Source: Muricea muricata
Taxonomy: Eukaryota; Cnidaria; Anthozoa; Malacalcyonacea; Plexauridae
DNA length: 64,000 bases
Direction: 5' to 3'
Assembly (NCBI GenBank): GCA_963855995.1
Contig: OY979716.1
Location: 45,589,213 to 45,653,212 of the forward strand
Under the pieces are notes generated by a model. That model was not told the DNA's origin, made no database searches, and worked only from the letters and a program-made list of their open reading frames with translations. Numbering within the stretch: position 1 is the first letter of the stretch; each line of letters starts with the position of its first letter. Below, one piece after another: positions 7,029-54,604 of this stretch. The position numbers and the translations under genes are program-made.

Positions 7029-7193
7029 GAGGGGACGAGCGCGAATGCAGGTCTCCACTAGCAGAAATTCTACCCTCGAGTTACCCACATTAGGGGTAAC
7101 CGCAGGAGTCAACCCAGTCTTAGTGCAATGAAAGGGCCTCATCCTGAGAGGACCTCCTAGTTGATCACGGTGCCTCTTGTGTCAGGTAAGTTT
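7029..7193 (-). ncRNA. U1: U1 snRNA, full length but diverged (probable pseudogene)
   Basis: Reading the minus strand from 7193, similarity to U1 runs in order over about 165 nt (human U1 is 164). Seen are the 5' splice-site-pairing CTTACCTG; GTGATCA in the stem-loop I region; CATTGCAC of the stem-loop II loop (7123-7130); stem-loop III; an Sm-like AATTTCTGC (7061-7069); and the stem-loop IV tetraloop TTCGCGCT. The U1-70K loop (normally GATCACGAAGG) reads GATCAACTAGG and many stem positions differ, suggesting a dead or variant copy. The 5' end abuts the 3' end of LINE B1, so its own promoter is displaced. Confidence 0.85.
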
Positions 7194-7561
7194 ATATTTT
7201 AAAGATGGCGATTCCGTCCCTACTGAGGGAACATGCAATGAAATGCCATATTTCAGGGTGTGCACCCGCACGCAAACGACTGGGGAGTCGAGCTCCAACC
7301 CTGACTAAATATGTGCACTGGCTATTTCTTTTTGCAGTGACGCGGCACTATCACATATTTAGTGCTAACATCAATACAAAAGGACATATTGACGAACGAG
7401 ACAGTAAACAGGACAGAAAACAACATAATCACAAAACAAACATATAATGCATGCCTAATTCGATTATGATTACATGCCCCTACAATTAAAAGCTAAAATT
7501 AGCTACCTATACTAAAACACACTAAGGTCACACCGAGATTAAAAAGAGAATAAAAAGACAC
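7194..7561 (-). other. B1 3' UTR with conserved hairpins
   Basis: Three structures shared with the other B elements are present. The U1A-site hairpin is at 7205-7249 (outer ATGGC/GCCAT, core TCCCT/AGGGA at 7217-7230). A GGGT/ACCC hairpin lies at about 7257-7268. A T-arm-like 5+7+5 hairpin is at 7281-7297, with one stem mismatch in this copy. The heptamer that is ATTGCAC elsewhere is mutated to ATTGCAT. Confidence 0.6.
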
Positions 7562-8328
7562 TCAGAAGGCAAAGATCAATTCCGTGCCCTCAAAGTGCCC
7601 CAAACAACCGCGGGCAAGCCACTCCCGCTCAAACGCACAAATTTGAGCAGGAGACCTACACCGCTTACTAAGTAAACCCAAAATAAATTTCACTTTGGCT
7701 ATAGCCTGACTAAGGCATTTTGATGCAACCGGCAGATGTTAAAGACTTCCTCTATGGAGTCATCTGTGGTCACCGCGACAGTCGTATCGTCGGCATACCC
7801 TGAGCTCCTAAACTCCTCCAAAGAATTTGGAAGTGTAATGCCGGTTAGTTTTGGAGACGTCCGAAGACAGACGGCAAGCACTTCGATTGATAGGACGTAA
7901 AGTAGTGGGGATAACGTACACCCTTGCTGTACCCCATGTGAAGGAGAAAAAAAGGAGGAAGTCCAACCATTGATAACAATGGCCGACTCTATATTATTAT
8001 AGAATAATTTGATCCAATTTATGAAGTCAGGACCAAAGTTAAAGGAAGAGAGTATGCGGATGAGAAAACCCCAGTCTACTTGATGAAAAGCCTTCTCTTG
8101 ATCGACACAAAAGCGCAAGCGGGAGATTTTCTCGATCCACATACTCCAAGAGATCTCGTATCAGAGAGAGATTCTCCGAAATGGTGCGGCCAGGAACACC
8201 ACACGTGATAATAACTCCGCCAGACACATACGATGGCAAAAGGGTCGTGGCAGACTTCACCCGTGGTTGGATCTCTAATGGACTTCATGGCTTGTTTGCC
8301 ATCCTTCTTGGTTAATTAATCCCAATTA

Positions 8329-8913
8329 ATGCATCTGTTGATCGATGGACACCCAATTGAGACAGTGCGTTCACATAAAGTACTGGGACTCACGATCCAA
8401 AACAACCTGAAATGGGATGAACATATCTATGAAATAGTCTCAAAGGCATCCAAACGATTGCATATCCTCCGGGTGTTGCGCCAAAGTGGTATTCCTCCTG
8501 CAGACCTTCTCACTGTGTATATTGTGTATATTGCGTTAATACGCTCAATCCTTGAATACTCTTGTGAAGTTTGGCACAGCTCTATCTCGTGCTATTTATC
8601 TGACAAACTTGAGAAAATCCAAAAGCGAGCCTTGCGTACTATATACCCTGAACAAACTTATAAAGATGCGTTGCTGTTGGCTGGTATCACCAAATTGGAG
8701 ACTAGACGTGAAGATCTATGTTTGAAGATACTCACGAAGATAACCAGAGGTGGTCCCCTTACACAATACATGACCCAGACTAGATCGAACGAGCATAATT
8801 ATTTTATTAGATCACTAAATAATTTATCAACTTATAAATGTCGAACTGATCGGTTTAAAAATAGTTTTTTTCCAAATACAATTAAGATTGCTAATAGTAA
8901 ACAGTGCTGGTGA
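8329..8913 (+). pseudogene. CR1/L2-like reverse transcriptase C-terminal fragment
   Basis: 194 codons starting at an internal Met, open to a TGA. It contains the post-catalytic signatures of the group: LGLTIQNNLKWDEHI, then LEYSCEVWHSSI, then QKRALRTIYP and LETRREDLCLKIL. Catalytic blocks and endonuclease are absent (5' truncation). The reading frame is intact, so the insertion may be fairly young. CR1, L2 and RTE-X tails resemble each other; which it is cannot be settled by eye. Confidence 0.75.
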
Positions 8914-9025
8914 GACTTGATCTTAACTTTGTCCTAACAACCATTGTAAAATCTTATATTATTATAGTATTTTAATGTAAGCACATTGTACTTCACGTTA
9001 TGTGCGAATTTGTGCTATTAAACAT

Positions 9026-9056
9026 CATCTTATCTTATCTTATCTTATCTTATCTT
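9026..9056 (+). repeat. (ATCTT)n microsatellite tail
   Basis: Six tandem ATCTT units directly at the 3' end of the CR1/L2-like fragment, acting as its 3' tail. Confidence 0.95.
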
Positions 9057-9501
9057 AAAAAAGGTGTTGTGGGCAGGATTTCGATTTGGTGCATATAATG
9101 AGATGAAACTAAGGGATTCATCCCCTAAAGATACTGAAGCTTGGGCAAAACGTCCAGCATCATTACGGATGATTTTATCTATTTTGTAAGTATCTTTTAC
9201 TAAAATGGCTGTGCCACCACTTTTATTGGTGAAACAAGAGGAGGCGGCGTGAAAGCTTGAGTTATGGAACTACCATCTGATAGATTCGTGAGAAGAGGCA
9301 TGCGTCTCCTGAAGACAAACGAAATCCACCTTCATGCAATGTAACCAATCGATAAAGGCAGTCCGTTTTCTATGATCATTTAGACCGTTAACATTTATTG
9401 ATATTAGATTAAAATTCATGGTCTAAGAAATGGAAGACAGGTAATGTTGGATACATTAACTGTAGGGCACGAATCTCTCGAAGCGATTCGGGCAAACTAG
9501 A

Positions 9502-11611
9502 TCACACATTGGCGTCAATAACAGCACCTGTCTCCACACTAGGAGGAGCAGGGGAGATAGGTTCAAGATTACTTGGACCAGTAGTTAAAGAGGAGGAAGC
9601 TGGTGGAGTATCACTCCACAAAATATCTTGACTGTTATCATGACTATCTGGATCATGATAAGGGACTAAGGCTAGAGAGGAGACTGGCGAGATCTCACTC
9701 TCAGCAGATATACTATTATTATTATTATTATTTACTGACTGAGGAGAGGAGCCTGGCGGGGACTCGCTCTCCACAGTCAAACTATATCTATTATTTACGT
9801 TGGCGTTTAAGGCCTTTTGGTCAGTGGTACTAGGCAGAGGGGAAGAATGACGCTGGGCTGATGCCCAAGGTGTGTACCCATCTGCAAGGACGCCAATCGT
9901 AACTTCCTCACTAGGTGGCACAGATGGCACCTCCAAGGCAACCTCAGAAGTTGGCAACGTAGGGGAGGAAGGAAGAGGAGGCAGATCCTCCAAATGAAGC
10001 AGTGGATCAACGACTGATGATCCAGCCAAGCAAAAATCTACGTCATCAGATCGCACCGTTTCCGTGAAGCGACAACGTTTCCGGCGACGACGCTCCGCCA
10101 ACGAGATGTCATCTAAGTCACCATCAGAATCGAAAAATAGAGCTTTCTGCCCAAAGGAACGGTGCTTGGCAGATTTAAAAGGCTTTGCTGTGGAAGCATT
10201 TACATCAAACGCGAAAGGAGTAGCTGGCACAGTATGTGTACAAAATAAACGTTCTCGGTAAAATGCTCAAGTGATAGACTGACTATGAACAAAGGAACTT
10301 GTACAAGTGGCCTTGTGGCCAGCAACTGATCGAGATTGGTGCGCCAGTACTTTAAATTGTTCCTCGACTGAGGAAGAAGAGACGTCTCCACTCTGAGGTT
10401 CTACCGATGTTGAGGGAAGATTAAACATCTGGCGTAGCGCAGCCAGATGGGCAGCAGGAGCAGAGGTAGAAACAGAGCTCGTTTCCGGTCCGTTCAATTC
10501 TGGGGTGGAAGGAACAGCAACAGTCGGTGATGTTATGACTGCCTGCTTGCCATCCCACCTAGTATATCGTTGGTGTTTGGCATTACGGGACCGTCTATTA
10601 GGAGGAGACGAAAAGCATTCGGTCGCCATTAATGCGACAGGGGCGAGGGAGGAAGGTGTCTCAGCCAGAGGCTCTACGGCATTACTCCCATCCATTGGTT
10701 CTATTTGCTGACCCTGTGTGTGCTCTATTTCTTTTTGCGGAGGAAGAGGCTTTTGGGCGGTGGTTTCCACCTGATCCTTAGATGTAGGTTTGGCCGCCCT
10801 TTTGGCATTTAGTTTTATTGTTAAATCTTCCTCTGACTTAGAAGATGGCTGGGTTGTCGTAACAACCCGTGTTTTACCAACGAATTTAACCTTCCATTTT
10901 TCGTGAGTGGAAGGCTGACTAGTTTTATTAACGTTATCATCCCTGATAGGATTGTTTTTATTGTTATTTATGCTATTGGCAGATCTCCGCGCCCGCCGTG
11001 ACTTCAGACAGCCCCTGCCCGTATGCCTCACCTCTTGGAACACGAAACAGGTCGGTGGCTGCCCTCGGTAGCGGAAGGAGAGCGAAAAACCACCTATATT
11101 TATATTGGCAGGGATGGGCTTAGTAATCACCATGGACACCCTACGCGTGCCGGATCGAACTGAAGGAAACCCTTTGACCTTCAAATGTTGGACTGAAATG
11201 ACCCGACCGTAGGGTGCCAAGGTGCCAAATGTTGGTCCTGCATCTGTAGAGGGGCCTGATCCACAAAGACGGACTTAACTTCCTCATATGCAGGAAGGGG
11301 TGTCAATTGTATACCCCGAAAAGCGATGCCATTTATATCGGCAGCGTGCAGATCTGAAAAGTAACGATACTCGATCCTATATCTAGTGGGGGACAAGGCC
11401 TGAACAGCAGCGACCTTGCGCTCCCCAATGGCATTGATAAGTTCTTTTCTCAACTGCGGGATTTTGGATTGTTTGGCTATTTGGGATGGAATTTTTACCA
11501 CCGAAGTGGTTTGATTCCACCGTTGAAAGTCTGCAGCCTGCAGTTGAAAGTCTGTTGTTATTATTATTAGGACTAGTATTGATGTTATTACTCTGGCTGG
11601 CAGCCAAGGTT
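9502..11611 (-). pseudogene. B1 ORF1: CCHC RNA-binding protein, broken
   Basis: The expected ATG is mutated (TTG at 11611, other copies ATG GCT). Conserved order: DFQRWNQTTSV, IPQLRKELINAIGERKVAAVQALSP, an RRM-like core with YGRVISVQHLKVKGF, then the zinc knuckle. The knuckle reads CFVFQEVRHTGRGC, so its second Cys is lost. Frame changes occur near 11220 and 10250. The C-terminal half is low complexity with SPPG/PVSS repeats and an Asn run. It ends earlier than the B4 homologue because of a stop at 9502. Confidence 0.75.
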
Positions 11612-12349
11612 GTTAAGGTGTAAAGAAGGGAATTAATAAAGTATATATACAAAATCCAGTACAACAGACACTCTCTAATAAATAAATTAGAGAAAAAACA
11701 AGAGAAAATCACTGGATTAAAACAAACAAAATTCCCAAAAGCAACAAAAAAACAAAACTTAATGCTAAAATAGCACTAAAAGAACCTACTATTAAAAGGC
11801 GCCTGTGCAATTGCGTACAATTGTCCCACAGACAACTACGACCTTTTAATAGACTACCGATAGCACCCACCCAACGCAAACACCACCAAAGACGCGCTCA
11901 AAACCTGAAGGTAAAAGATGACCAAGAACCCCAACAGGAAGCGTCAAAGAAACCAGAAGAAAGTGATCCCTGACCTTTGAGCAACCTGGCTCGACCGGCC
12001 CAACCACGGAAAAACTAGTACCCTCTACCTAAATGTGTTACATTATGTGCAAAATATGGAGGGAGTTGCCCTGCTAGTCAGGCACAACGGAAGAACCAGC
12101 CAACTGGTTAAAACAAGAAAAAGAGGGGGATTTGTTGCAAGTCGGACAAACTGAGGCTAACCCTCAGCCGGACTGAACAACGGAGGTAAACTACAAAAAA
12201 GTGTAAGCGGAGTGGCGTGTCTACACCAAGCACAATGGGGGTGTAGCTAGTTGAGTCCAGCACAGTCGTGTTAAGGGCTCCAATCCCTGGCATGGACGTC
12301 CACAACTGCCCGGTTGAAGACACTGAATGCGAGTACAAGTGACTTGCAT
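11612..12349 (-). other. B1 5' UTR
   Basis: Non-coding. It contains the nested inverted repeat conserved in the family: outer arms 11789-11799 and 11842-11852 (CTATTAAAAGG/CCTTTTAATAG), inner arms 11803-11813 and 11818-11831 around a CAATTG-CGTA-CAATTG loop. The 5' terminus is a hairpin at 12329-12347 (minus: GCAAGT/ACTCGC, weakened by a mutation). Confidence 0.6.
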
Positions 12350-12360
12350 CAGGTAAGTTT
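12350..12360 (-). other. Retained U1 target motif between B2 3' end and B1 5' end
   Basis: Minus strand AAACTTACCTG, equal to U1 nt 1-11 with one change, followed by AT and the B1 hairpin. It is the head-to-tail junction between two LINEs. Confidence 0.7.
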
Positions 12361-12783
12361 GTATTTCTAAAAACGACATGTTCGTCTCTACTGAGAGAAA
12401 GTGCAATGGAATGTCGTATTTCAGGGTGTGAACCGGCACGCAAACTACCAGGGAGACGATCCCTGACCCTGACTAAATGTGGGCACCGGCTGTTTATTTT
12501 GACAGCGACGCGGCACTGGCCCACATTTAACGCTAACATCAAGACAAAAGGACATACTGACGAACGGGACATATTGACAACCCTAACAGATATAGTAACG
12601 AAAGGGACATATTGACAATTCAAAACATATAATTACGAACGGGACATATTGACAATCATAAACATACATGGGAACCCCTACCAATTAAAATTAATTAGAA
12701 TAATAATTTTCTAACTAATGATAAAAAATAATGGACGATGTGACACGCTAAGGTCACATCAGGAATTGTTAAAAGGACGACAC
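12361..12783 (-). other. B2 3' UTR with covarying hairpins
   Basis: The U1A-site hairpin spans 12374-12416: outer CGACAT/ATGTCG and core TCTCT-CAGT-AGAGA at 12385-12398. The core pair at position 3 is T-A here but C-G in B1 and B4. The T-arm-like hairpin is CAGGG-7 nt-CCCTG at 12449-12465, against TGGGG/CCCCA in B6 and B7. ATTGCAC is present. A short GACATATTGAC repeat occurs at about 12550-12655. Confidence 0.65.
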
Positions 12784-15030
12784 TCAGAAGAAGACAAGTT
12801 CCTGGCCCTCAAAGTGCCCCAAAGAACCACGGGCAAGCCACTCTCGCTCAAACGCGCGTATTTGAGCAGGGCTCTTGCACCGTTTTGATACTAACGTTAG
12901 AATGAATTTTAATTTTGCAATTACTTTGTTTAGACATTCTGAGATTATTGGCGTCTTCTGACGAAATCGGAAGTCACAACGAGCAACCCAGATGGTATGT
13001 TTAACAACCAACAACATATAAATGATGATTGAAGGGATTGCTCGACGACGTGCCTCCGAAAAACCAAACAAAAACTCCTCAACAGTAAACCGACCTGCGG
13101 TTGGATTGATTGTGTATAAATTAAAGTATACTCATGCAACCAGGATGCGAGCCAGCTCGCACTCGAAGAACAGGTGCTCGAGAGTGTCGTCGTCAGCGCG
13201 ACAAAAACAGAGACTCTCTTTATGGCGCATGCCGAAGCGATGCACAAGGCGAGCACCTGTGTAAAGCACACCGTGTGCTATCTGCCAGTTAAGATCGATG
13301 ACTTTACGGTCAAGATCGCAAATGTGCAACTGGCTCCAGGTTTGAGACCAGTGCAACTGACCGTAAATTGGCAGATACTTCTGGATGCAGTGCGGCTCTT
13401 TGTAGTTACGAGACCGCAAAAGGGCATACGTATTTCGCGAGGAAATTTGCTCTAAGGGTAAAGGAAAATCAGAAAACGCTTGAAGACTGAGCACATCGCC
13501 GTTTGCTACGCCACCACCGTTTGCTACGCCACCACCCAGGGTCCGCCATACCCGATGGATGGTTTGATAGAATGCAGGAAGTTGTTTGATCTGCTGGCAA
13601 TACTGCTCAGACAATAGCGCATTGCGTGGCTGCATGTCAAAAGCGAACATGTAAAAATAGGTGGAAAACGCTTTCCATTTGCCCTCAGACGGGGCAAAGA
13701 AGCGCTTCAGCCACTGCAATGCAAACGAGTCAGCCTTTTCTTTGAAATTAATAATCCCAAAGCCACCCTGGCCTTTGGGAAGGCTGACCGTTATTCGTGC
13801 CACAAGTTCTTGCTTCCCCGACCAAAAGAAATTCCAGACCGCCATGTTAATTCGTCTCATGGCCCAACTTGGCACCGGAAAGACGTGGCATAAGTGCCAA
13901 ACCTGGGACAAAGCCAGGCTATTGATGATAACTGTCTTTCCTTGGAAAGACAGTTGACGGCCTGCCCAAGCAGAAAGTTGCGATTCTAAACTATTCACTG
14001 CCGGTTCCCATGTTGGCATGCTGTAATCGCCAACGCTGAAGGTCGCTCCAAGCAGTGGGAGTTGTTTAACCCACTGCAACCCATAAGGGTTATCTTGGCG
14101 ATCCTTCCATGAACCAGCCCACATTCCTTTCGACTTTCCGCGATTTAGTCGAGCACCTGAGGCACATTCGAATTTACTATAGACGTTGAACGTCTCCTCT
14201 ATCGATTTATCGTTTGTCACGGGTACGGTCGTATCGTCAGCGTAGCCGGAACATTTGCATGGGTCCACCAAGTGCGGTATGGTAACGCCGGTGATTCTGG
14301 GTGACTTGCGAATACACTTGGCGAGCACCTCGGTGGAGAGCACATACAAAAGAGGAGACAAAGAACACCCCTGTCGGACACCCCACGAGGGGCAAAAGAA
14401 AGAAGATGTCCAGCCGTTGATGACGACGGCAGATTCAACGTCTGTATAAAATAGTTTGACCCAATTCATAAAATCTGGGCCAAAGTTAAATGTTTCGAGT
14501 ATGCAATGCAGGAAACCCCAATCGACTCTATCAAATGCCTTCTCTTGGTCTAAAGAGAGAAGGGCTAGGGGGAGGTTTTCCTGATCAACATACTCAAGGA
14601 GATCTCTGATTGTAAAAAGATCCTCGCTAATGGACCTGCCACGTACGCCACACGTTTGGTCAGGTCCAATAATGCTTTCTATTACACCAAGAAGTCATCC
14701 AGATATAGCCCAAGTGGCGATCTTGTAATCCACATTCAAGAGACTAATCGCACGCCAGTTCTTGGTGTCCAGTTTATCGTTCTTCTTATAAAGAACAATA
14801 ATCAAACCCCTGCGCTGTGAGGTGGATAGTTGGCCGGCCTCGAAAGCAGCGTTGAGGACGCGGACCAAATCGGCACCAAGGGTTTTCCACAATGCTTGGT
14901 AAAATTCCATTGGGAAGCCATCCGAACCTGGGGTTTTACCCTTAGGCATACCCTTGAGAGCTTCAAAACACTCATCAAGAGTCAGGTTGCCTTTGCAGCC
15001 AGCTCTCTCGGCCGTACTCAGACGACGATG
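12784..15030 (-). pseudogene. B2 ORF2, RT and C-terminal part
   Basis: RT blocks run from 14949 (MPKGKTPGSDGFPMEFY) through DQEKAFDRVDW (about 14530), RQGCSLSPLLY and YADD (intact) to the thumb. The C-terminal zinc-like CFCRADDDTLEHLFFEC follows at about 13180, then the tail to 12784. One frame change near 14695 and another near 13140. An 18-bp tandem duplication at about 13498-13535 adds a repeated GGGVAN hexapeptide. Confidence 0.8.
15022..15030. repeat. Left target-site duplication of the Academ-like transposon
   Basis: ACGACGATG, repeated at 23564-23572. Removing the element and one copy restores continuous B2 ORF2 sequence. Confidence 0.85.
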
Positions 15031-15031
15031 G

Positions 15032-15116
15032 ACCCTGCTAGCAGAGCGTCATTTTCCTTCCTTCTGGGGGCGGCGAGGGCGAAGGAAAACGACACTCTGC
15101 CGAAATTGTGTTCTTT
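15032..15116 (+). repeat. Left TIR of the Academ-like transposon
   Basis: Begins ACCCTGCTAGCAGAGC and contains an internal CTGCTAGCAG palindrome. It matches the reverse complement of 23478-23562 over about 85 bp with no difference that I can see; the nucleotide just outside differs between the ends (G at 15031, A at 23563). Confidence 0.9.
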
Positions 15117-15290
15117 CTCTGAAGTCGCCGTCACCCAAGAACTTGGGCGAAACAAACTGGTTTATTGTTGCATTAATTCATGTTTTACAGGTTTTAATGC
15201 GCACGCTTTGTTTTTGCGTATGATCGCTGACATACAAGTGAGCCCACGTTGTGACCTTATACATTTATTATTCAGTAATCAGTATTCAAA

Positions 15291-17509
15291 ATGTCTGTAA
15301 AGAGTCATGTTCAAAAGTGCTTAGCGAAAGTTATGTTTGATATTTTCCGTTCCGAGGATATAAAATTGAGGGAAGAACAGACAAATGCGATAGAAACTTT
15401 CATGTTGGGTAGAGATACGTTTGTTTCTCTACCAACAGGTTCTGGAAAATCTTTAATATATCAAGTAATTATTCCTCTCGCCAGTGAGTTATTTATACAA
15501 CGTGAAAGCGGTGAAACAAGAAACTTTTCACGTCAGCTGCCAAAATACCCGATGCTTTTGGTTGTGGCTCCACTACAAGCATTGGTAAGTGAACAGATAA
15601 CCTCGTGTGAAAAGTTGGGTTTAAAAGCTACAAAATTGGAATGCACTGATTGCGAACACGACGACACCAAATTCGACCATTTCAACATACTTTTCACAAG
15701 TCCTGAAACGTTAGAGAGGAATTATGTCGCTATTCGACACTTGCAGCACCGTATAATCGGAGTCGTAATCGATGAGTCTCATTGTGTTGTAAACTGGTAA
15801 GTAACATTTTCTGATTGTTTGCATTTGATTAACTGCTTGTACACCCCCCCCCCGCACAAAAAATTCAAAAACAGCGTGTGCGTTGTACATTATTATCATT
15901 ATATTATGAAGAAACTTTCAGTTAAAAGGCTAAGTATAATACTGTAAGTCATAATTTAGTGTGTGAAACGACTAAATTATAACCAACAACAATGACAGAA
16001 GATAAACAAAGTCCGGTCAGCTCCTTGGTAGCACACCAATGCACCCCCCCCCCAGGAAAATCTGCACCCCTCCTATCAGATGAGATTGTGCAGTTCTATG
16101 TATTTAGGAACATGTATGATGTATCTGTTTGCAGAGTCCACTGGAAGTAGGAATTTCCTGTGCAAAGTTTGCAATTTATTTTTTTATAAGCCATATTTAA
16201 TTTTGTATAATTGGATAGTACAAACTGGGGTAATTTCACAGTCAAATTAGTGAAAGTAAAGATTTATTTTGATTTGATAATTAGGGGAACTACTGACCAT
16301 GGCAAAACTCCTTTTCGTTCATCTTATGCACGTGTTGGTAATATCAAGGCATTAGTAAATGCTCCAACCCTGTGTTTAACAGCAACAGCAAGTGCAAAAA
16401 CAAGAAAAAAAATCATCCAGATGCTGCATATGGTCAACACAAAGGTGATATACCTTTCTCCTGATAAGGAAAATATAAAGTATATTGTGCAGAAAGCAGA
16501 CAAAGGAGGACTTCATGTAACATTTAGTTGGATTATTGAAGATTTAAAAAAGCATTTGCAAGCATGTCCTAAGACAATAATATTTTGTACTTCATTCAAG
16601 GAATGTGGAGAGGTGTATGACACCTTCTCAGATATCATGGCTGATACTTTTACTACATATTATGCTATGTACCATTCTAAAACTCCAGAAAGAATAAAGG
16701 AGCAAGTACTGTCTGATATTGTCACTAATGGAAACATACGTATTGTTATTGCTACAAGTGCACTAGGAATGGGGATAAACATTGCAGACATTCAAAGAAT
16801 TATTCACTATGGTGCCCCACAGGATATCGAATCATATGTTCAGGCTGTTGGGAGAGGTGGAAGAAATGGCTGTGATGTTTTGGCAATATTGTATTATCAA
16901 AACTACCACCTCCGTCACTGTGATGAGAAAATGAGAGCTTACATCAAAAACAACAGGCTATGTAGGCGTTTTGAAGTCCTAAAATATTTTAATGAAAAGC
17001 GAAAAGAATCATCATTGGTGCTCCATAGTTGTTGTGATATCTGTTCTTTAAAGTGTGCATGTAAATCATGTCCTGTAGATGTGCATAGACCCATTGGGAA
17101 GGGCCTAAATGCCAGCACTTCCCTCTGTGATGAAGGAAATGAAAACTTGGTAACACGTTGTGTCTCTAGCAAAGAAAGAGAAACATTTGTTGATGTGTTA
17201 AAAGATATTCAACAAAGTGGAAATGCAACAGTATTTGGTACAACATTTCTAAAAAACATGCTTGATGACTGTGTAATCAATAAATTGGGCAGTGGTTTGG
17301 AGAACCTATTCAGTGTTGAATATGTTACAAAAAACTTTCCCATTTTGGATCATAGAGTGGCATGTGAAATCTTAAATGTTGTCAATGATATATTCCAGGA
17401 CATTGACGAAGCATCATTTCAGGAATCACATTTTAGTAACTGGGTAAGAGATGACTTTTACTTTTCTCAAGTAACAGACAGTTATGATAGTGAAAAATCT
17501 GTTTGCTGA
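15291..17509 (+). CDS. RecQ-like superfamily II DNA helicase of the transposon (two exons)
   Basis: Exon 1 is 15291-15796, the intron 15797-16284 (GT...AG) and exon 2 16285-17509, giving 577 codons including TGA with no internal stop. Exon 1 holds motif 0 (LREEQ), Walker A TGSGKS (residues 49-54) and DESH at the exon end. Exon 2 restores the RecQ-type W-G-x-x-D-H context and has LTATAS (motif III), IIFCTS (IV) and IATSALGMGINIADI...QAVGRGGRNG (V/VI). A Cys-rich CCDICSLKCACKSC block resembles the RecQ zinc-binding domain. An HRDC-type region is not obvious. ATP-dependent unwinding during transposition is the presumed role. The intron contains a C-run at about 16043 and another at 15845. Confidence 0.85.
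15797..16284 (+). other. Helicase intron
   Basis: GTAAGT donor, ATTAG acceptor, 488 bp. Splicing joins AACTG to GGGAACTAC in frame and rebuilds the conserved Trp-Gly after DESHCVVN. Two runs of 9-11 C (about 15843 and 16043) lie inside. Confidence 0.85.
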
Positions 17510-18211
17510 TAACCTGATCAGTATAAAGCAACTGAATACATGTCAGAGTTAGTAAGTAATTGGATAGGATAAGTACATAATTTAGTAATTCAGTGAAGTA
17601 TGTGTGACATAAGAGCCTCGCTTTGAGACATGTAATATGTGACCCGATAATAAAAACAATGTCAAACAGGGAGAGAGTGTGTATAGAGAACCACAAACGG
17701 ATTCTGTTTTGGGGTGTTATTAGGGCGTGTTATAACCGTAACAAATACTTGTGAAGTTGTCGAGTACTACGATATTGCTGAGATCGAATAATTCCCAATA
17801 TACATGATTATAATTATCTAGCATATTAAAGAATGGGTATCTTACAAGTGATCCTTTGCACACTTGACATCCCAGAAAATAGCTGACGGTTGAGATGTTT
17901 ATGAGTAATTGTTCCCATTCACAGCAATGTCCATTTTCCATGGTCATTGCTGAAGTGAATACAACAGATCACCTATCATTGGTGACACAATAAGGACTAG
18001 GCCTAATAAGACACACCCAAATGTAAATTGACATAAGTATAAACACAAGCTGAAGAATGCATGGGATCACTGGCATAATACTCACCCTTTAGCCCTTTAA
18101 CATTATATTATACACACATATCCAGTTATGATGTGAGCAATTTTTACAATATAAATTGTTACCAGCCCAGTCTCATGATCAGCTAAAATATCCTGACTGC
18201 CATTGATTTGG
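17510..18211. other. Spacer between convergent helicase and transposase genes
   Basis: AT-rich, no supportable ORF. It should contain both 3' UTRs; several AATAAA-like words occur on both strands (for example 17648 plus). Confidence 0.5.
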
Positions 18212-39637: not shown

Positions 39638-39775
39638 CAGGTAAGTATGAGTTTCAATAGCGCAGGCACTCACGTTTTATTCAGCCAACAAGAATGGAAA
39701 CGGACGTGGTTCTGCCTGCAAACTCGTGCTCACTCATGTACCCCATTTGCATTTCATCTCTCAGCTTGGGTAAGT
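39638..39775 (-). repeat. 138-bp junction segment, copy 1
   Basis: Minus strand: starts ACTTACCC, contains octamer ATGCAAAT (about 39747-39754), ends CTCATACTTACCTGAC at the B5 5' end. Near-identical copies at 46905-47042 and 54467-54604. Probably U1 5' flanking sequence; see findings. Confidence 0.7.
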
Positions 39776-40206
39776 TTATACTTTTAAATTCGACCTTACC
39801 GTCCCGATTGAGGGATTGTGCAATGGCATGCCGAATTTTGGGGTGTGTACCCACACGCAAAACAACTGGGGAGTCGAGCCCCAACCCTGACTAAATGCCT
39901 GTTAAGGACACATTTAGCGCTAATGGACACGACAACACTCTGACGAACAGGACAGAAAACAAGGCAGAAAACAACATAAAACATATAACAAGAGAAACTT
40001 GCAAATGAGACATAAATAGCGCTATATAAACCCCGAAAATTAAATAACTAAAAGTTAAAAAATGTATATATGTGTGTGTAATTATCTATGTGTAATTGTA
40101 CATGTAATGTACCTATATATATATATACATGGACGATGCACCATGGAAGATAGCACCGGGATACCACCAAGAAGGTTAAAAAGAAGAAAAGAGGGAAGAG
40201 AGACAC
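39776..40206 (-). other. B6 3' UTR
   Basis: Core hairpin TCCC/GGGA at 39802-39815 with ATTGCAC beside it, T-arm-like TGGGG-CTCGACT-CCCCA at 39867-39883, TTAGCGCTAA palindrome near 39913 and a (TA)n run near 40113. Non-coding. Confidence 0.6.
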
Positions 40207-43200: not shown

Positions 43201-43742
43201 GCCGGTAGGTTTGCGAGAACGACATGAGGGACTCCAACGCTGCAACGCCTTCCCGTTGCTTAGCTGATGGTCCTGCAACATATGTTGGATCGCGCATCCG
43301 ATCTAATAGCGGATCCAATACAGCATTGAAGTCCCCGGCCACAAAGGTTGGCCCGGACAAATCCATTAAGCCTGTTAAGCGAGGCGAAAAATATGTTCCG
43401 AATCGAAATCTGGCGCGTACAGCGAGACAAAACTGGCCTGGCCTTCCCCGAAGTCCACAACAGCCTGAACGTAGCGGCCATTTTCATCCTTGATGATTTT
43501 TGTGATTTTATATTGGTCTTTAACAAGGATGGCGACGCCTGCACTCTTAGATGTTAATGAAGAGGAGGCGACGCGATAGCCGCTGTTAGCGAACCACTTT
43601 CTGGCAGACTCGTGCGAAGGGGAGTGGGTCTCCTGTAGACACACCACGTCCACCTTTATGCACTTAAGCCAGTCTACCAGTGCGGTCCGCTTTAGATGGT
43701 CGTTCAGACCGTTAACGTTTAGTGTAGTATCTTGAGATCCAT
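40207..43742 (-). pseudogene. B6 ORF2, frameshifted, active site YADN
   Basis: ATG 43742 reads only a few codons because a small deletion near 43725 shifts the frame. Endonuclease runs 43730-43010 in two frames (CLQETH, GDFNAVLDP, RIDMVWAP; the SDHQ site reads SDHQY in its own frame). Linker 43080-42415. RT 42346-40925 has SFDQEKAFDRVDW, RGVRQGCPLSPLLY and YADN instead of YADD. C-terminal region 40866-40207 with CFCATADETLEHLFFEC, ending DLVFTF. Several frameshifts. Confidence 0.8.
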
Positions 43743-46247: not shown

Positions 46248-46904
46248 AGTTAGTATAAGTTAAGAAAAAAAGGGAATTAAAAAAATAGAAATATATACAA
46301 TAATCCAGTTCAACACACACACACTTTCTCTAATAAAAATAAATTAGAGAAAAGAAAAACAAGAGAAAATAACTGGATAAACAAATTGCCAACAAAAACA
46401 AAACTTAACTTAACCTAACTAACCTACTATTAAAAGGCCTCTGTGCAATTGAATACAATTGTCCCACAGACTAACTAATCCGGCCTTTTAATAGACTACA
46501 GACGCGCTCAAAACCTGAAGGAAAAGATGGACCAAGAACCCCAACAGGAAGCGTCAAAGAAACCAAAAAAAAGTGATCCCTGACCTTTGAGTCACCAGAC
46601 TCGACCGGCCCAACCACGGAAAAACTAGTTCCCTCTACCTATACACGTGTGGACTATGTGCGAAAAATATGCAGGGAGGTGCCCAGTTAAGCCGGTACAC
46701 CGGAAGACAAGGTAGGCTAACCCTACCACCTACAGCGGAAGTAAACTACGAGAAGGGAAGGGTTATGGAGTTGTCTACACCAAGCACAATGAAGGGGGTG
46801 TAGCTCGTTGATTCCGGCACAGTCGTGTTATGAGAACCAATCTCAAGCATCGATCCACAACTGCCCGGTCGAAGACACTGAAACGCGAATCAAGTGATTC
46901 GCGC
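46248..46904 (-). other. B6 5' UTR
   Basis: Nested inverted repeat: CTATTAAAAGGCC (46427-46439) and GGCCTTTTAATAG (46482-46494), inner CAATTG pair. 5'-terminal perfect hairpin CGCGAATCA-CT-TGATTCGCG at 46884-46903. No coding sequence. Confidence 0.65.
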
Positions 46905-47042
46905 CTGGTAAGTATGAGTTTCAATAGCGCAGGCACTCACGTTTTATTCAGCCAACAAGAATGGAAACGGACGTGGTTCTGCCTGCACACTCGTGCTCTC
47001 TCATGTACCCCATTTGCATTTCATCTCTCAGCTTGGGTAAGT
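46905..47042 (-). repeat. 138-bp junction segment, copy 2
   Basis: Between the B7 3' end (ACTTACCC) and the B6 5' end (ATACTTACCAGGC). Contains ATGCAAAT. Almost identical to copies 1 and 3. Confidence 0.75.
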
Positions 47043-47465
47043 TTATACTTTTAAATTCGACATTGCCGTCCCGATTGAGGGATTGTGCAATGGCATGCCG
47101 AATTTCGGGGTGTGTACCCACACGCAAAACAACTGGGGAGTCGAGCCCCAACCCCGACTAAATGCCTGTTAAGCACACATTTAGCGCTAATGGACACGAC
47201 AACACTCTGACGAACAGGACAGAAAACAAGGCAGAAAACAACATAAAACAGATAACAAGAGAAACTTTTGCAAATGAGACATAAATAGCGCTATATAAAC
47301 CCCGAAAATTAAATAACTAAATGTTAAAAAATGTATATATGTGCGTATGTTAAAATGCGTGTATAATGTAAACTATATATATATACATGGATGGTGCTCC
47401 ATGGAAGATAGCACCGGGATACCACCAAGAAGGTTAAAAAGAAGAAAAAGAGGGAAGAGAGACAC
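47043..47465 (-). other. B7 3' UTR
   Basis: Hairpin with core TCCC/GGGA at 47069-47082 and outer CATTGC/GCAATG (47061-47066, 47087-47092). T-arm-like hairpin at 47134-47150 and a TA-rich run near 47373. ATTGCAC present, but here its first bases can also pair in the outer stem. Confidence 0.6.
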
Positions 47466-50400
47466 TTAGAAGGAGAAGACAAGGTCCGGACCCTCCAAGT
47501 GCCCCAAAGAACCGCGGCCAAGCCACTCCCGCTCAAACGCGCGAATTTGAGCAGGAGACTTGCACCGCTTAAATAAATTTAAAATAAATTTAATACGTCT
47601 AATCGCTATATGTAAAACGTTAGAAGCAACAGGTACCTTCTGACGAAATCGGAAGTCGCACCGAGCAACCCAAATGGCATGTTTCATGACCATCAGCATG
47701 AAAAGAAAGATGGAAGGGATTGCCCGGCGACGAGCTTCCGAAAACCCGAAAAGCAGCTCATCAACCGTAAACCGACCAGCGGTTGGGTTGATAGAATGTA
47801 AATACATATACACCCAGGCCACCAAGAGGCGAGCCAGCTCGCACTCGAAGAAGAGATGTTCAAGCGTCTCGTCGGCAGTCGCACAAAAACATCGACTGTC
47901 GACTCCACGCATTCTAAAATTGATGGCCAAGCGGGCACCGGTGTAGAGAACCCCATGAGCGATCTGCCAATTCAGATCGACCACCTTACGGTCCAGATCG
48001 CATATATGCAACTGGTGCCATGTCTCGGGCCAGTGCAAGGGACCGTAGGTGGGAAGGAATTTCGTGATGCAATGGGGCTCCTTGTAATTGTGTGCCTGCA
48101 GGAGTGTGTACGTAATTCGCGAGGTGAGCTGCGAGATGTTGACCGGGTTGTCAGAAGATACCCTAATGCCCAGCTCGTCGCTACCCACCATCAAACCCCC
48201 GTCCAGGGCTCGCCATACCCTGAAAAGGAGCTGATAAAATGTGGGCAGAGATCGTAAAAGGCGACGAGGCTGGGCTGTTAGAAGAGCGCTGCGTGGCTCT
48301 AAATTAAAAGTACTTTGGAAGAAATAAACAAAAAAGGTCCTCCAACGCCCGTCGGAGGACACGAAAAAACGTTTGAGCCACTGCAGCGCAAAAGCTTCGG
48401 CTTTATAACGAAAATTTACAACCCCAAAGCCACCCTGAGCTTTGGGGAGAGTTACTGTGGTCCGGGCCACTTGGTCACGTTTGCCAGACCAAAAGAAGGT
48501 CCAAACGGCCTTATCGATACGTTTCCCCGCCCAACCTGGTATGGGGAAAACGTGACACAAGTGATAAAGTTGACTTAGTGCAAGGGTGTTTATGACAACT
48601 GCCTTCCCCTGAAAAGACAGCTGTCGCCCGGACCACGAGGCAAGCCGAGTCTCCAAACTGGAGACGACTGGCTCCCACGTTGGGGTGGTGTAATCACCAA
48701 CGCTGCAGGTCGCACCGAGCAGTGGCAGCTGTTTTACCCACTGTAGCCCATATGGGGTATCGGTACGATCCTTCCAGGAACCAGCCCACATAGCCTTCGA
48801 CTTGCCTCTATTTAATTTGGCGCCAGAGGCCCTCTCGTATGTAGAGTAAACTGAGAAGGTCTCCTCTATTGACTGCTCTGTAGTGACGGCTACGCTGGTG
48901 TCGTCTGCGTAGCCGGAGCACTTGTACCCCTCCCCCGAGTGGGGGATGGTCACGCCCTCAATGTTCGGGGATGCACGAGTGCACCCTGCCAGCACTTCGA
49001 TGGAGAGGACGTACAATAGAGGAGACAGAGGGCACCCCTGGCGCACACCCCTAGTGGGGTTAAAAAACGAGGACATCCAGCCATTTATAATGACAGCTGA
49101 CTGGATGTCCGTGTAAAATAGACGAACCCAGTTGCGAAACTGAGGCCCGAAATTAAAAGTCTCGAGTATGCGGAGCAGGAATCCCCAATCCACGCGATCG
49201 AAGGCCTTCTCTTGATCGAGAGAGAGAAGGGCGAGGGGGATATCTTCCCGCTCCACATACTCTAATAGATCTCGCACCCCGGCGAGATTTTCGCTAATGG
49301 TCCGGCCTCGCACACCGCAAGTCTGGTCCGGACCAACAATAGTAGGCATGACACCAAGAAGGCGCCCCGAAATAGCCCTAGTAGCGATCTTGTAATCTAC
49401 ATTTAAAAAGCTAATGGGGCGCCAATTCTTGGTGTCAAGAGGGTCGTTCTTCTTGTACAGAACAATGATCAGTCCCCGGCGCTGAGAGGTGGAAAGCTGG
49501 CCGGCCTCAAAAGCTGCATTGAGGACGCGGACCAGATCAGCATCGGGGGACTGCCAAAACACTTTATAAAACTCCATAGGGAGACCGTCCAACCCGGGTG
49601 TCTTACCGTGAGGCATGCCCGAAAGGGCGGCCCAGCATTCGTCAACGGTAAGACACCCCTCGCAACCAGCCCTCTCAGCCTGACTTAAGCGATGTGTCAG
49701 CTGAGAGAGCATGGTGTCCTGAGCGATGGGATCACACACCTGTGCGGTAAATAAGGTGTCGTAGTACGCCCGCCAGACCCCCAAGATCTCAAATGGGTCG
49801 TGGCGGACCAGTCCAGTTGCAGGATCGCGTATCGAGTACATCGTCTGCCGGGCATGGTGTTTCGACTCCAGGTTCAGGAAGTAAGAGGAGGATGTCTCTC
49901 CCTCCTCTGCCCACTGGTAGCGGGCACGAACCTGGGCCCCTTTGGCCTCGTACAGAGCGATGTCTCTCAACTCCTGCTGGACTGCGCACAAGCGTGTGAA
50001 GGCTGTTCGATCCCCCTGATCGAACGCCTCTTTAAGGGCGTGCATCTCTTTGGTGAGAGAGGCCTTCCTGTCGCGTTTGTCGGCGGCTTTTGCTCGCTCG
50101 AATGTTCGGGAGACCTCTCTCAAATAGAACTTGCCCTGGTCCCACCAGTCCATCAGGGATGGAAAATCGGCGTGATTTTCCATGGACTGCCAGTGGGACC
50201 AGAACGAATTAATTAAATTATGGTACTCGGGGTCCTGGAGGAGCGAAGCATTCAGCTTCCACACCCCCGGCCCCGAGTCAAATTGTTGTTGCATATTAAA
50301 TTCCACCAATAAATATTGGTGGTTGCTAAGGAAGGATGGATGGTACTCACACCCCTTGATGTAATTAGATAGTGCAGTTGGAGCCCACACCATGTCGATC

Positions 50401-51016
50401 CGCGACGCCTGGGTGCCATCCCGTGCGTCCATGAATACGCCGTGCGCCCTGGATGTAATTGGCGCCACACGGGGTAGGTTTGCGTGAACGACATGAGGGA
50501 CTCCAACGCAGGGATGCTTTCCCGTTGCTGGGCAGCAGGCCCAGCAACATATGATGGATCTCTCATCCTATCCTTAGCGGGATCCAGAACGGCATTAAAG
50601 TCACCGGCCACAAAGGTTGGCCGAGACAAGTCAATTAAGCCAGTTAGACCGGCGAAAAATACGTTACGCGCCGGGTTGCGGTTCGGCGCGTACAATTAAA
50701 TGAAACTAGCCTGGCCCTCCCCGAAGTCCACAACGGCCTGAACGTAGCGGCCATCTTCATCCTTGATAATTTTCTTGATTTTATGTTGGTCGTTAACAAG
50801 GATGGCGACGCCTGCACTCTTTGATGTTAATGAAGAGGAGGTGACGCGATAGCCGCTGTTAGCGAACCACCTTCTGGCAGACTCGTGCGAAGGGGAGTGG
50901 GTCTCCTGGAGGCACACCACGTCCACCTTCATGCACTTAAGCCAGTCTACCAGTGCGGTCCGCTTTAGATGGTCGTTCAGACCATTAATGTTTAGCGATA
51001 CGATCTTGAGATCCAT
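47466..51016 (-). pseudogene. B7 ORF2: endonuclease-reverse transcriptase, nearly intact
   Basis: About 1180 codons. Endonuclease from ATG 51016 (SLNINGLNDHLKRT, VCLQETH), a TAA at 50696, then LYAPNRN, GDFNAVLDP and a 1-nt deletion near 50430. The remaining 1000 codons (50468-47466) are open: RIDMVWAP, then SNHQYL where SDHQYL is expected, linker, RT with SLDQEKAFDRVDW, RGVRQGCPLSPLLY and intact YADD, thumb, C-terminal CFCATADETLEHLFFEC (zf-RVT type), ending LVFSF. The protein nicks target DNA and performs target-primed reverse transcription. Only two small lesions block the frame. Confidence 0.88.
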
Positions 51017-53489
51017 TATTGGACTCCAAGGAAGGCTCAGGCAGCTCCATGAGGAGCTGTAGACAGGTCGGATCGGTGAGGATCGCCCTGTTTAATGCGT
51101 CGATCGTGTCCAGCGACTGGGACACGGGGGCCACAGGGGCCCCACCGATCAATGCCTCAAACCTCCCCGTTGATGATGCCGGGGAGGGCAAAAATTCCGG
51201 GGTGGAGAGCACAGAGGCAAACGGTGACTCATCTCCCCCCACCACTGATGGAAACGAGCTGCTGTGGAACGGGGGTGGCGTTTGCCATCCCATGTTGGTA
51301 TCCCCAGCAGCTACGCTCGAGGACAAGGAGAGAGAGTCCACCGTTGACTCTGCCTCCAAGCGAGATAGAGGGGAGGAGACTGGCGGAATCTCGCTCCCCT
51401 CAACTAAATTGTTATTATTAGTTGTGAGGTCTGGGGTCGACGTGACCCCAGAACCAGGATTAATGATGTTACTTGGACGTGGGGTCGACGTGACCCCAGG
51501 ACCAGTGCAGATGTTGTTCGTTGGATCTGAGGTCAGCGTGACCCCAGATCCGATATTAGTGTTTATTGTGGGGGAGGAGACCGGCAGCATCTCCCTCCCC
51601 TCGGCTGGTGCGTTAGTGTGGCAAACTGGGTCCGAGACCAACATGGCCTCGGTCCCGGAATCAACCTGAGGGGAGGAGACTGGCGGCATCTCCTCAACCT
51701 CAGCGATGGTATGGCTAGACGGGGGGGAAGAGACTGGCGGCATCTCGCTCCCCCCGACTGATGGTAATACAGGGCAGTCCATATTTAAGGGGTCAAAGAG
51801 ACTTGACCCCGACAAGCACTCGTCCACGGCCTCCACCGGTTGCGTGGAAGACAAACGCCGTCTCTTGCGTTCCTGACTCCGCTGCAGTAAAGGGATGTCA
51901 TCATCCTCCTGCAGCGAGTCGATCTTAGATTTGCCAGGCCGCCTTTGGGAGGGTCAAGGGAGAGGGCTCACGGCACCTCGATACGCCCTTGTCCACTCTG
52001 ATTGTACTGAGGAGGCACTGGCCGTTACGGTTGATGTTGAGACGGTCGTTAGCTTAAAGGAGAACTGCTCGACCGAGGGAGCAGCAACCCCTGAGGCAAC
52101 ATCCTCGGGTGCGCTCACCAGGACCGACTTGGCCCTGGTTGATCTCGAACTACTCGGACGAGCAGAACCCTTGTACTGGAATGACGCTGGCGTGGCCGTG
52201 GCGAGCGTTGCCACAGTAGCTATGGACTGCGCCTGTTTGGCCAGAGACCGGAAATCTGTCTCTGACTCGGAGTCTCGAATTTTCACCGGCTCCAGATCGT
52301 CCGATGGCGATGACATGCCGAACACCTGGCGAATAGCAGCCAGGTGATGAGCCGGGGGAGATGTTGATATTTTAGTTTTATTATTGTTGAGAGACTGGAC
52401 TGCTCTCAGACCAGCCTCGCCAGGGACGGAAGGGGCAGTCTCACCCTGCGGGTCTTTAGCAACGACCTTAACTCCCGCCCCCTTTGAAGACTGGCCCTTA
52501 GCTTTGCCAGCCTCTCGTTTAACTTTTGGAGGAGAAGGAGAGCATGTATCCATGGAATCAGCCTCGCTCGTGACGCTATGGACAGTCTTGGCTGCCTCAG
52601 CTTTTGCCCCCTGCGAGGACTGACCCTGCGATGCGTCAACCTCCTTCCCCTTAATAATATTGACTTGCGAGGTGGATCCCGACGCGGCAGCTTTCGAGGG
52701 AGCCAACTTGGCAGCCCTCGACGCGTTGATCTTTTCCCGGAGATCCACCTGCTGTTGTTGTTTAGCAAGGGCAGAGACAGTACGCTCTGACCCTTGGACA
52801 TTAATTTTGAGGTCCTCATGACCTTGTTTGTGTGTGATGTTTTTAGAGCCATCCTGTTCTTGTTGTTGTTGTTTAGCCGATTTCTGGGCCCGCCGAGACT
52901 TTGGGCAGTCCTTGCCTGTATGCCCCACCTCCTGGCACACGAAACAAGTTGGTGGCTGCCCGCGGTAACGGAAGGACACCAAGAAACCTCCGATGTTTAT
53001 AGTAGCAGGAATGGCTTTAGTTAAGACCATGGACACCCTACGGGTGCCGGAGCGAACGGACTCAAAGCCCTTCACTTTTAGATGTTGAATAGAGATAACT
53101 CTCCCGTAGGGCGCCAAGGTCTCAAACAAAATGTTGTCTTGCATTTGCAAGGGGGCTCTGTCCACGAAGATCGACTTAACCTCCTCGTATGCGGGGAGGG
53201 GCTGCAAATGGATGCCCCGGAACGAAATTCCGTTTATGTCGGCGGCGTGCCGATCTGAACTACGACGGAATTCGATCCTGTACTTAAATGGAGACAAGGC
53301 TTGCACAGCCGCAACCTTGCGCTCCCCAACTGATTGAATTAATTCTTTTCTCAGCTGCGGGATTTTACTCGATCTTATTAGGCGTTGTGGAATCGAAACC
53401 ACCGAAGTGGTCTGATTCCACCGCTGGAAATCCGCAGCTGAGAAGGTAACTGTTTTTAAAGTGTTGTTGTGATTCTGGCTAATAGCCAT
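50985..53489 (-). pseudogene. B7 ORF1: CCHC RNA-binding protein, one frameshift
   Basis: ATG 53489 (MAISQNHNNTLKTVTFSAAD). 511 open codons: conserved N-terminus, RRM-like core (TLAPYGRVISIQHLKVKGF), knuckle CFVCQEVGHTGKDC, Gln/Lys-rich stretch, Ala/Lys-rich middle and Ser/Thr-rich segment to 51954. A frameshift lies near 51950, in a G-rich run of variable length between copies. The C-terminal part (51854-50985) has EMPPVSSP and GVTSTP repeats. It overlaps the ORF2 start by 32 nt. About 830 codons, long for an ORF1. Confidence 0.85.
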
Positions 53490-54149
53490 AGTTAGTATAA
53501 GTTAAGAACAAAGGGAATTAAACAAAATAGAAATATATACAATAATCCAGTTCAACACGCACTTTCTCTAATAAAAATAAATTAGAGAAAAGAAAAACAA
53601 GAAAAAATAACTGGATAAACAAATTCCCAACAAAAACAAAAACAAAACTTCACTTAACCTAACTAACCTACTATTAAAAGGCCTCTGTGCAATTGAATAC
53701 AATTGTCCCACAGACTAACTAATCCGGCCTTTTAATAGACTACAGACGCGCTCAAAACCTGAAGGAAAAGATGGACCAAGAACCCCAACAGGAAAGCGTC
53801 AAAGAAACCAGAAAAAAGTTATCCCTGACCTTTGAGTCACCAGACTCGACCGGCCCAACCACGGAAAAACTAGTTCCCTCTACCTATACATGTGTGGACT
53901 ATGTGCGAAAAATATGCAGGGAGGTGCCCAGTTAAGCCGGTACACCGGAAGACAAGGTAGGCTAACCCTACCGCCTACAGCGGAAGTAAACTACGAGAAG
54001 GGAAGGGTTATGGAGTTGTCTACACCAAGCACAATGAAGGGGGTGTAGCTCGTTGATTCCGGCACAGTCGTGTTATGAGAACCAATCTCAAGCATCGATC
54101 CACAACTGCCCGGTCGAAGACACTGAAACGCGAATCAAGTGATTCGCGC
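53490..54149 (-). other. B7 5' UTR
   Basis: Nested inverted repeat arms 53671-53683 and 53726-53738, same sequence as B6. Terminal perfect hairpin at 54129-54148. No ORF supported. Confidence 0.65.
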
Positions 54150-54160
54150 CAGGTAAGTTT
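54150..54160 (-). other. U1 target motif between short element and B7
   Basis: Minus AAACTTACCTG then GCG and the B7 hairpin. Confidence 0.75.
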
Positions 54161-54466
54161 GTATTGCAAGTCCTGCTCCCGACACCAAGAGGGTCGTGCA
54201 ATGGTCGCAGGGTGAAATGCAACTTGGAAGGCCCCCGTTCGCGACCGCTCTTTTCCGAAGAAAAGCCTCGCTACAGGTAACGCACCTCCCAACAGCGCGA
54301 AACTAGTAGGCCGTAAAGCACTACCAGCTAATGTCTCCAAAAGGAGGACAAAAAATACAACCTGCTGGGCGTACCATACAGGAGGAAAAAACTGCTGGGC
54401 GAACCATACAGCAAAAAGGTGCCTGCTGGGCTAACCATACAGACGAAAAACTTAACCTAAACGCGC
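54161..54466 (-). mobile_element. 306-bp non-autonomous element in the U1 target
   Basis: It lies between two ACTTACCTGGC motifs exactly as the LINEs do. Its 3' end (54161-54205) shares layout with the B 3' UTR: CCATTGCAC, a small hairpin (CGAC/GTCG, 54180-54196), then ATACAAACTTACC. The rest is unrelated and includes three copies of CTGCTGGGC..ACCATACAG at 54362-54381, 54392-54411 and 54423-54442. No ORF. Likely mobilised by B-type ORF2 (inference). Confidence 0.65.
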
Positions 54467-54604
54467 CAGGTAAGTATGAGTTTCAATAGCGCAGGCACTC
54501 ACGTTTTATTCAGCCAACAAGAATGGAAACGGACGTGGTTCTGCCTGCACACTCGTGCTCTCTCATGTACCCCATTTGCATTTCATCTCTCAGCTTCGGT
54601 AAGT
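54467..54604 (-). repeat. 138-bp junction segment, copy 3 (adjoins single-copy DNA)
   Basis: Same segment as copies 1 and 2, but its upstream side (ACTTACCGAAGC) meets non-repeat sequence instead of a LINE 3' end. This copy probably shows the ancestral context upstream of the U1 target. ATGCAAAT on the minus strand at about 54577-54584. Confidence 0.7.

Follow-up and report, generated by a model that had tools for sequence, protein, structure and literature searches.

A LINE stack inside a U1 unit

The window analysed here is a stretch of 64,000 nucleotides (nt) of the Muricea muricata genome (positions 45,589,213-45,653,212 of contig OY979716.1, referred to below as C1, in an assembly of 453 Mb and 74 contigs), and its main content is a 47-kb stack of long interspersed nuclear elements (LINEs) that interrupts a single unit of the U1 small nuclear RNA (snRNA) gene. 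Namely, following the minus strand, the promoter and spacer of that unit lie upstream of the stack (54944-54476), and U1 nt 3-166 (7191-7030) and a further spacer (6821-6626) lie downstream of it. We read this locus together with a 200-kb stretch of tandem U1 array on another contig, C16, and with searches of the whole assembly, and our central result is that one exact insertion spot at the start of the U1 gene is used by several LINE families of this genome. The parts of the locus, in the direction of the U1 gene, are the following.

54476-54944, minus strand: spacer and promoter of the U1 unit that received the array, with octamer ATGCAAAT, conserved promoter block and upstream ACTTACC motif (76% identity to the C16 U1 unit; promoter alignment)
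54159-54475, minus strand: F, a short element of 317 bp including the 5' target copy; no coding capacity seen; tail with CATTGCAC
47043-54158, minus strand: E, a full-length LINE of 7,116 bp including the 5' 16-bp target copy; open reading frame 1 (ORF1) of 511 amino acids (aa), ORF2 broken (988 aa left)
47043-47110, minus strand: 3' tail of E with the AUUGCAC internal-loop stem, found likewise in the tails at 39776, 30571, 12359 and 7192
46914-47042, minus strand: U1 promoter copy after E, from the upstream motif ACTTACCCAAG to the U1 start; one difference from the 54475 promoter
39776-46913, minus strand: D, a full-length LINE of 7,138 bp, of the same family as E (88.5% identical); ORFs broken
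39647-39775, minus strand: U1 promoter copy after D
30571-39646, minus strand: C, a chimera of a D/E-family 5' part and a family-1 3' part (BLAST)
12359-30570, minus strand: B, an E-like 5' part (to about 24738) and a family-2 3' part (24643-23564 and 15032-12359) split by a DNA transposon
15033-23560, no strand assigned: DNA transposon nested in B, about 8.5 kb, with 83-bp perfect terminal inverted repeats; outside the U1 system
7192-12358, minus strand: A, a family-1 LINE with internal deletions (BLAST)
7030-7191, minus strand: U1 snRNA gene body, nt 3-166, separated from its promoter by the array (Rfam RF00003, 120.1 bits; 94.5% identity)
6626-6821, minus strand: U1 unit spacer 3' of the gene (76% identity to the C16 U1 unit)

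An earlier sequence-only reading of this DNA had described a head-to-tail LINE array with the U1 5' end at seven junctions. The observation is confirmed, and its interpretation as insertion into U1 genes is supported. In particular, all seven motifs are real, lying about 2 bp from the coordinates then quoted: on the minus strand they begin at 7191, 12358, 30570, 39646, 46913, 54158 and 54475. With at most one mismatch, ACTTACCTGGC occurs six times in the window, as against 0.84 times expected, and none of 100 shuffles reached six; the seventh motif, at 12358, has two mismatches. Rfam finds one U1 in the window (7193-7030, minus strand), at 120.1 bits against a cut-off of 69.5. By BLAST this gene comprises nt 3-166, with 94.5% identity to a C16 U1 gene, and since it thus starts at nt 3, the LINE tail supplies the two leading letters of the Rfam match, so that a LINE 3' end does run into a U1 body there, as had been proposed. 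The flank noted before the other outermost motif, at 54475, likewise turns out to be U1 promoter and spacer, directly adjoining. The idea that the target is regenerated and reused at each junction holds at 54158, 30570 and 12358, where tail and head are in contact, and unlike families adjoin at the first (F-E) and the last (B-A) of these; at 46913 and 39646 there is no such contact, a 129-bp U1 promoter copy standing between the elements.

Insertion at the start of the U1 gene

The target site can be read most cleanly on C16. A profile search of the assembly returned U1 genes of up to 143.4 bits, all of them on C16 (42 scored of 5,883 candidates), and in the C16 stretch 66 U1 starts have the normal CTCAT before them. 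Six full-length elements in it start after CTCATACTTACCTGACGCGAG, i.e. after U1 nt 18, and in five cases an element tail runs directly into the U1 body at nt 3. Taken together, these 5' ends and tails define the duplication as U1 nt 3-18, or 16 bp; it is perfect at five of the six copies, the sixth having a promoter-motif junction. The target duplication suggested by the sequence-only reading is therefore real, but its length is 16 bp and not about 11 nt. The elements interrupt U1 genes of about 142 bits and stand singly in otherwise regular U1 units, with intact U1 genes alongside. In short, ACTTACC directly follows the element tail, and the element begins after U1 nt 18. Five of the copies are 6,900 bp long and letter-for-letter identical, and one is 7,286 bp long.

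Across the assembly, the pattern of the 5' junction (the target joined to an element head, at most two mismatches) has 78 sites, 52 on C1 and 26 on C16, with none for the reversed control; 72 of them belong to a C1 cluster (44.4-45.9 Mb) or a C16 cluster (6.1-6.45 Mb). This query includes the target and hence is no test of specificity. A flank-free test was provided by the last 19 bases of family 1, which, at up to two mismatches, have 70 matches in the assembly. Those with at most one mismatch are followed by ACTTACC (21) or ACTTTCC (1) in 22 of 22 cases, and lie on C1 at 44.4-45.9 Mb and 56.8 Mb and on C16 at 6.1-6.45 Mb; the random flanks that would have spoken against U1 targeting are thus not what family-1-type tails have. 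A variant tail accounts for 17 more matches, followed by ACTTACC (15), ACTTATC (1) or ACTTGTC (1, on contig C10), and one further match is followed by ACTTACC. The other 30 matches, all with two mismatches, occur at the frequency of chance, judging from the 47 matches of the reversed control. What is more, an S/Y-degenerate tail plus ACTTACC has 40 matches, as against none in its reversed control.

U1 starts themselves (at most three mismatches) number 114, with none in the control, and fall in the same C16 and C1 clusters as the LINE junctions; single U1 starts at C1 32.65 and 48.07 Mb are among the sites listed. At least 13 of the 40 tails run straight into a U1 start, by comparison with 41 listed U1 places, the window U1 making a 14th, and seven run straight into another element, the 30570 junction among them. 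The gap from tail to next 5' junction is 120-128 bp in three cases and 316-318 bp in three others, and for 33 of the 40 a 5' junction lies 6.3-7.4 kb upstream, the distance expected of full-length copies. The C1 cluster holds at least 45 LINE 5' junctions and scattered U1 starts over about 1.5 Mb, and would seem to be a second, large U1 locus that these LINEs have for the most part taken over. Of 20 junctions sampled on C1, seven follow a normal U1 promoter, three a promoter preceded by a D/E tail, four a family-2 tail and six an F tail.

That said, several points weigh against so general a reading. One of the 40 tails, on C10 (5442588-5442613), is followed by ACTTGTC. The flank-free genome-wide specificity covers family-1-type tails only; for the element heads and for the tails of family 2, D/E and F, specificity is judged from the window, from the C16 stretch and from a sample of 20 among the 52 C1 junctions, which were found with the target in the query. 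In addition, the identity of the five 6,900-bp copies could stem from homogenisation of the array and not from separate insertions. The C10 tail, away from C1 and C16, may be a rare off-target or a translocated copy.

As for their class, the elements are apurinic/apyrimidinic endonuclease (APE)-type, L1-like non-LTR (long terminal repeat) retrotransposons, having APE and reverse transcriptase (RT) in one ORF, a separate CCHC ORF1, a target duplication and no LTRs. In the 6,900-bp C16 element, ORF1 (735 aa) and ORF2 (1183 aa) are both open and overlap slightly; in the 7,286-bp element the ORFs have 851 and 1181 aa, and the two ORF2s are 72% identical. Pfam finds Exo_endo_phos, i.e. APE (63.1 bits), and RVT_1 (117.4 bits) in the 1183-aa ORF2, both above cut-off, and it reports no restriction-like endonuclease (RLE) domain in ORF2, which has the N-terminal APE instead. 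The best PDB match of this protein is L1 ORF2p (residues 3-875, E 3.8e-82). The zf-CCHC domain of ORF1 exceeds its cut-off of 20.8 bits in E (23.2 bits) and in B (23.7 bits) and stays below it in the C16 copy (15.8 bits). Sequence-specific insertion, as seen here, is frequent in the Tx1 clade, though not universal there, and there is no Tx1 label among the 120 listed of 3,374 ORF2 homologues. Among these 120, at least 11 are at least 60% identical over at least 97% of ORF2, and by this measure the protein lineage extends beyond the Muricea muricata genome. A look for relatives with readable flanks gave none in viral contigs and, in genome contigs, only two distant loci of 28-30% identity.

By BLAST, the window copies fall into three types: family 1 comprises A and parts of C, family 2 comprises parts of B, and D/E comprises D and E together with parts of B and C. 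ORF2 identity among the three families is 71-74%. F has a fourth type of tail; the 316-318-bp gap occurs at three further sites, two of which end in an F tail according to the sampled junctions, and F is probably a short non-autonomous element. Three LINE families and a short element of about 300 bp thus share one U1 insertion site.

The remaining elements of the window stand apart from this system. The ORFs of the nested DNA transposon (15033-23560), which sits in a family-2 LINE, carry a RecQ-type helicase C-terminal domain and DUF6589. An LTR retrotransposon, presumably BEL/Pao-like, occupies 56806-63293 inside a family-1 LINE fragment, with an aspartyl protease and DUF1759 ORF and 429-bp repeats that are 99.3% identical. 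Finally, an RT ORF fragment (RVT_1, 37.7 bits) lies at 1320-2441, outside the array.

Tail stem, promoter-carrying junctions and stacks

Both ends of the elements show features that may matter at the RNA level. At the 5' end, the last seven target-derived nt (ACGCGAG, U1 nt 12-18) can pair with the element start CTCGCGT at six or seven of the seven positions in 27 of 27 heads (20 from C1, five from the window and two from C16), the C1 heads having been found through the target copy and not through the pairing arm. The heads of these families share ancestry, so the 27 are not independent cases, which counts against giving the figure its full weight. An Rfam scan of window positions 46700-47300 for a 5' ribozyme, with E up to 5, returned only a sub-threshold long non-coding RNA match.

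At the 3' end, CATTGCA stands 45-50 nt from the end in all 18 tails, and CATTGCAC in 17 of them, over four tail types including the otherwise unlike F; among simulated tails of the same composition, 0.3-0.6% contain it. In ten tails of three families the motif sits in a 9-to-1 internal loop between two stems. The loop reads AUUGCAC in nine of the ten aligned tails and AUUGCAU in the tenth, and the closing C-G pair is present in all ten. In the alignment of this stem 94.3% of cells are paired, as against 30-49% (at most 49.3%) in slid controls, and 14 cells are changed on both sides, where shuffles have a mean of 4.8 and none of 500 reached 14. Folds of single tails have z-scores of -2.3 to -3.0, and the loop is open in family 1 and E. 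U1A, one of the proteins of U1, binds AUUGCAC together with a closing C-G pair, both in stem-loop 2 of U1 and in the internal loop of its own pre-mRNA, according to the relevant passages of PMC2203988. The tail stem has just this arrangement of an AUUGCAC loop beside a closing C-G pair, and its loop is a possible, putative U1A-binding site.

A number of findings speak against this assignment or against the stem itself. Five pairs change on both sides, a number that 29 of 500 shuffles reached, and for pair types 52 of 500 did so. The structure was chosen from the same sequences that were used for covariation; the loop is partly paired in a family-2 tail, and the F tail folds otherwise. Moreover, tail structures recognised by RT are known in other LINEs, and the U1A motif is one 8-mer, where 13-22% of simulated tails share some 8-mer with U1. 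We would therefore give an even chance to the alternative that the stem serves solely for recognition by RT and that its likeness to the U1A site is fortuitous. Its difficulties are the recurrence of CATTGCAC in four tail types, one of them otherwise unlike the rest, and the invariant C-G pair ahead of the loop, which U1A needs for binding, in an element that targets U1 genes.

About 125 bp before the U1 gene, all aligned promoters contain an ACTTACC-like motif, usually as CTCA(T/C)ACTTACC (L064 has ACTTATC). This copy of the U1 5' end in C16 and C1 promoters (e.g. L007, L056, L064) may be an old insertion scar or a part of the promoter. Some tails are joined to this second motif and not to the U1 start, with the 5' end still at U1 nt 18. 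We read such joins at six places (window E and D, C16 6372342, L063, L066 and L069), and three more are suggested by the gaps of 120-128 bp. In these promoter copies the letters before the ACTTACC-like motif are those of the element tail, and window E, window D and the C16 copy all begin after U1 nt 18. At C16 6372342 an intact U1 gene of full score follows the promoter copy. The simplest reading of these junctions is that they are duplications of 140-145 bp that include the octamer and promoter.

The same junctions also fit the loss of U1 units or recombination between copies, i.e. the deletion of one U1 unit or an exchange between a promoter-motif copy and a U1-start copy. The U1 units are tandem, a deletion would yield the same order of parts, and the C16 spacing suits both accounts. 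We consider this alternative rather unlikely all the same. Namely, a single position separates the promoter after E from the one that precedes the stack, whereas most other C1 promoters sampled differ far more widely; the promoters concerned are of several subtypes, and all of them are joined at the same motif; and among 11 heads with readable flanks, in the window and the C16 stretch, no 5' end lies at the promoter motif. The 20 C1 samples, likewise devoid of such a 5' end, were selected by target and so could not have shown one. The target copies of D and E read GCGCGAA, which a mutation at the locus explains as well as a U1-templated leader would.

As to the stacks, each insertion leaves a fresh copy of the target, and further elements, often of other families, occupy it, which yields the head-to-tail order. 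One could suppose instead that a single U1 insertion was multiplied into the stacks, chiefly through unequal crossing-over or segmental duplication, in keeping with the five identical C16 copies, the tandem and homogeneous U1 array and the chimeric element C, which shows recombination between copies. We judge this improbable, and as a sole cause it is hard to sustain: neighbours in the window belong to different families (F-E, B-A), the sampled C1 junctions join unlike tails and heads, and lone full-length insertions with perfect 16-bp duplications stand in regular U1 units. Lastly, that ACTTACC is the element's own 3' end or an unrelated satellite, with U1 involved by accident at one place, has next to no probability, for although the window has a single recognisable U1 gene, this reading is refuted by the clean C16 insertions, which interrupt U1 genes with perfect nt 3-18 duplications and intact genes alongside; the co-clustering of U1 starts and LINE junctions on C1 and C16 likewise speaks against it.

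Proposed mechanism and comparable systems

The explanation that we favour as a whole, and regard as very probable, is that an L1-like, APE-type LINE lineage, of at least three families here, and a short non-autonomous companion insert at the U1 start and stack there, with a putative promoter-copy step and a possible U1A step. Namely, the endonuclease would nick the bottom strand before ACTTACC, and the element RNA would be copied there by target-primed reverse transcription. Where the upstream motif is used, a 140-145-bp duplication would copy the U1 promoter, such that element and gene each retain one. The element RNA would then start at the U1 start site with a U1 leader, whose nt 12-18 could pair with the first bases of the element. 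In the boldest step, the AUUGCAC loop of the tail would bind the U1A of the host, either to control polyadenylation or to be delivered to the U1 locus. That the elements use U1A or the U1 promoter is something that we infer, and it should be weighed against this picture that the U1-targeting system is known here from DNA sequence alone. More tentatively still, and with considerable doubt, we suggest that the lineage may be wired into U1 at three levels, i.e. insertion at the U1 5' end, transcription from the U1 promoter with a folding leader, and a tail with a U1A loop, with the upstream nick sparing the gene. If this is true, a host protein of the small nuclear ribonucleoprotein (snRNP) serves the element RNA, and the element lands with its own promoter copy while the U1 gene stays intact.

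In passages of PMC4640811, the transposons of snRNA genes listed in 2015 are Keno and Utopia (both U2), Dada-U1 and Dada-U6, and the passages seen of PMC8869645 (2022) treat LINEs in snRNA genes generally and mention U1 only for Dada. The suggestion that a U1-specific LINE family might be undescribed agrees with the open-licence literature searched, which gave none, Repbase not being covered. In our view the LINE lineage is real and specific to U1 snRNA genes; its kind is known, its target is undescribed in that literature, and the promoter-carrying junctions and the U1A-like tail add two unusual features. Splicing requires U1, and a LINE specific for its gene would be one more entry among the few transposons known from snRNA genes. 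Enzymes of the APE type with site specificity also hold interest for targeted gene insertion, a use discussed for R1 and SART1 in a passage of PMC3706591. With its intact genes and clean, identical insertions, the C16 array makes target recognition, re-insertion and promoter duplication testable with short DNA substrates, and the U1A-mimicking tail, if true, would be a testable case of a retrotransposon borrowing an snRNP protein.

Among known systems, R2 and R1 are LINEs of the 28S ribosomal DNA, with site-specific, gene-oriented insertion into a tandem RNA gene array in which many genes are left intact. The U1 LINEs share all of this and differ in the gene, in the ORF layout and, within the window segment scanned with Rfam (46700-47300), in having no R2-type 5' ribozyme match. 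Keno is a Tx1-clade LINE that occupies U2 snRNA genes (Kojima and Fujiwara 2004, as given in PMC4640811 and PMC3706591). Like the U1 LINEs, it is of the APE type and inserts strictly at a single site in the gene of a spliceosomal snRNA; the likeness is one of description only, and the target here is U1 nt 3-18 and not U2. The passages on Keno in these two papers make no mention of promoter-carrying junctions or of an AUUGCAC tail. Utopia, as described in part of PMC4640811, resembles the U1 LINEs in its snRNA-gene target, occasional tandem insertion and the presence of several families in one gene array; however, it is RLE-type and targets the U2 gene, whereas the U1 LINEs are APE-type (Exo_endo_phos). 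Dada-U1, a DNA transposon, likewise targets U1 and has tandem copies, and ATTGCAC has been noted both in its sub-terminal repeats and in U1 (passages of PMC3706591). According to the same passages, it has a DDE transposase and makes a 6-bp (or 8-bp) duplication at GCGAAT/GCGAAC, in another place of U1. The U1 LINEs, in contrast, code for RT and APE and leave their 16-bp duplication at nt 3-18.

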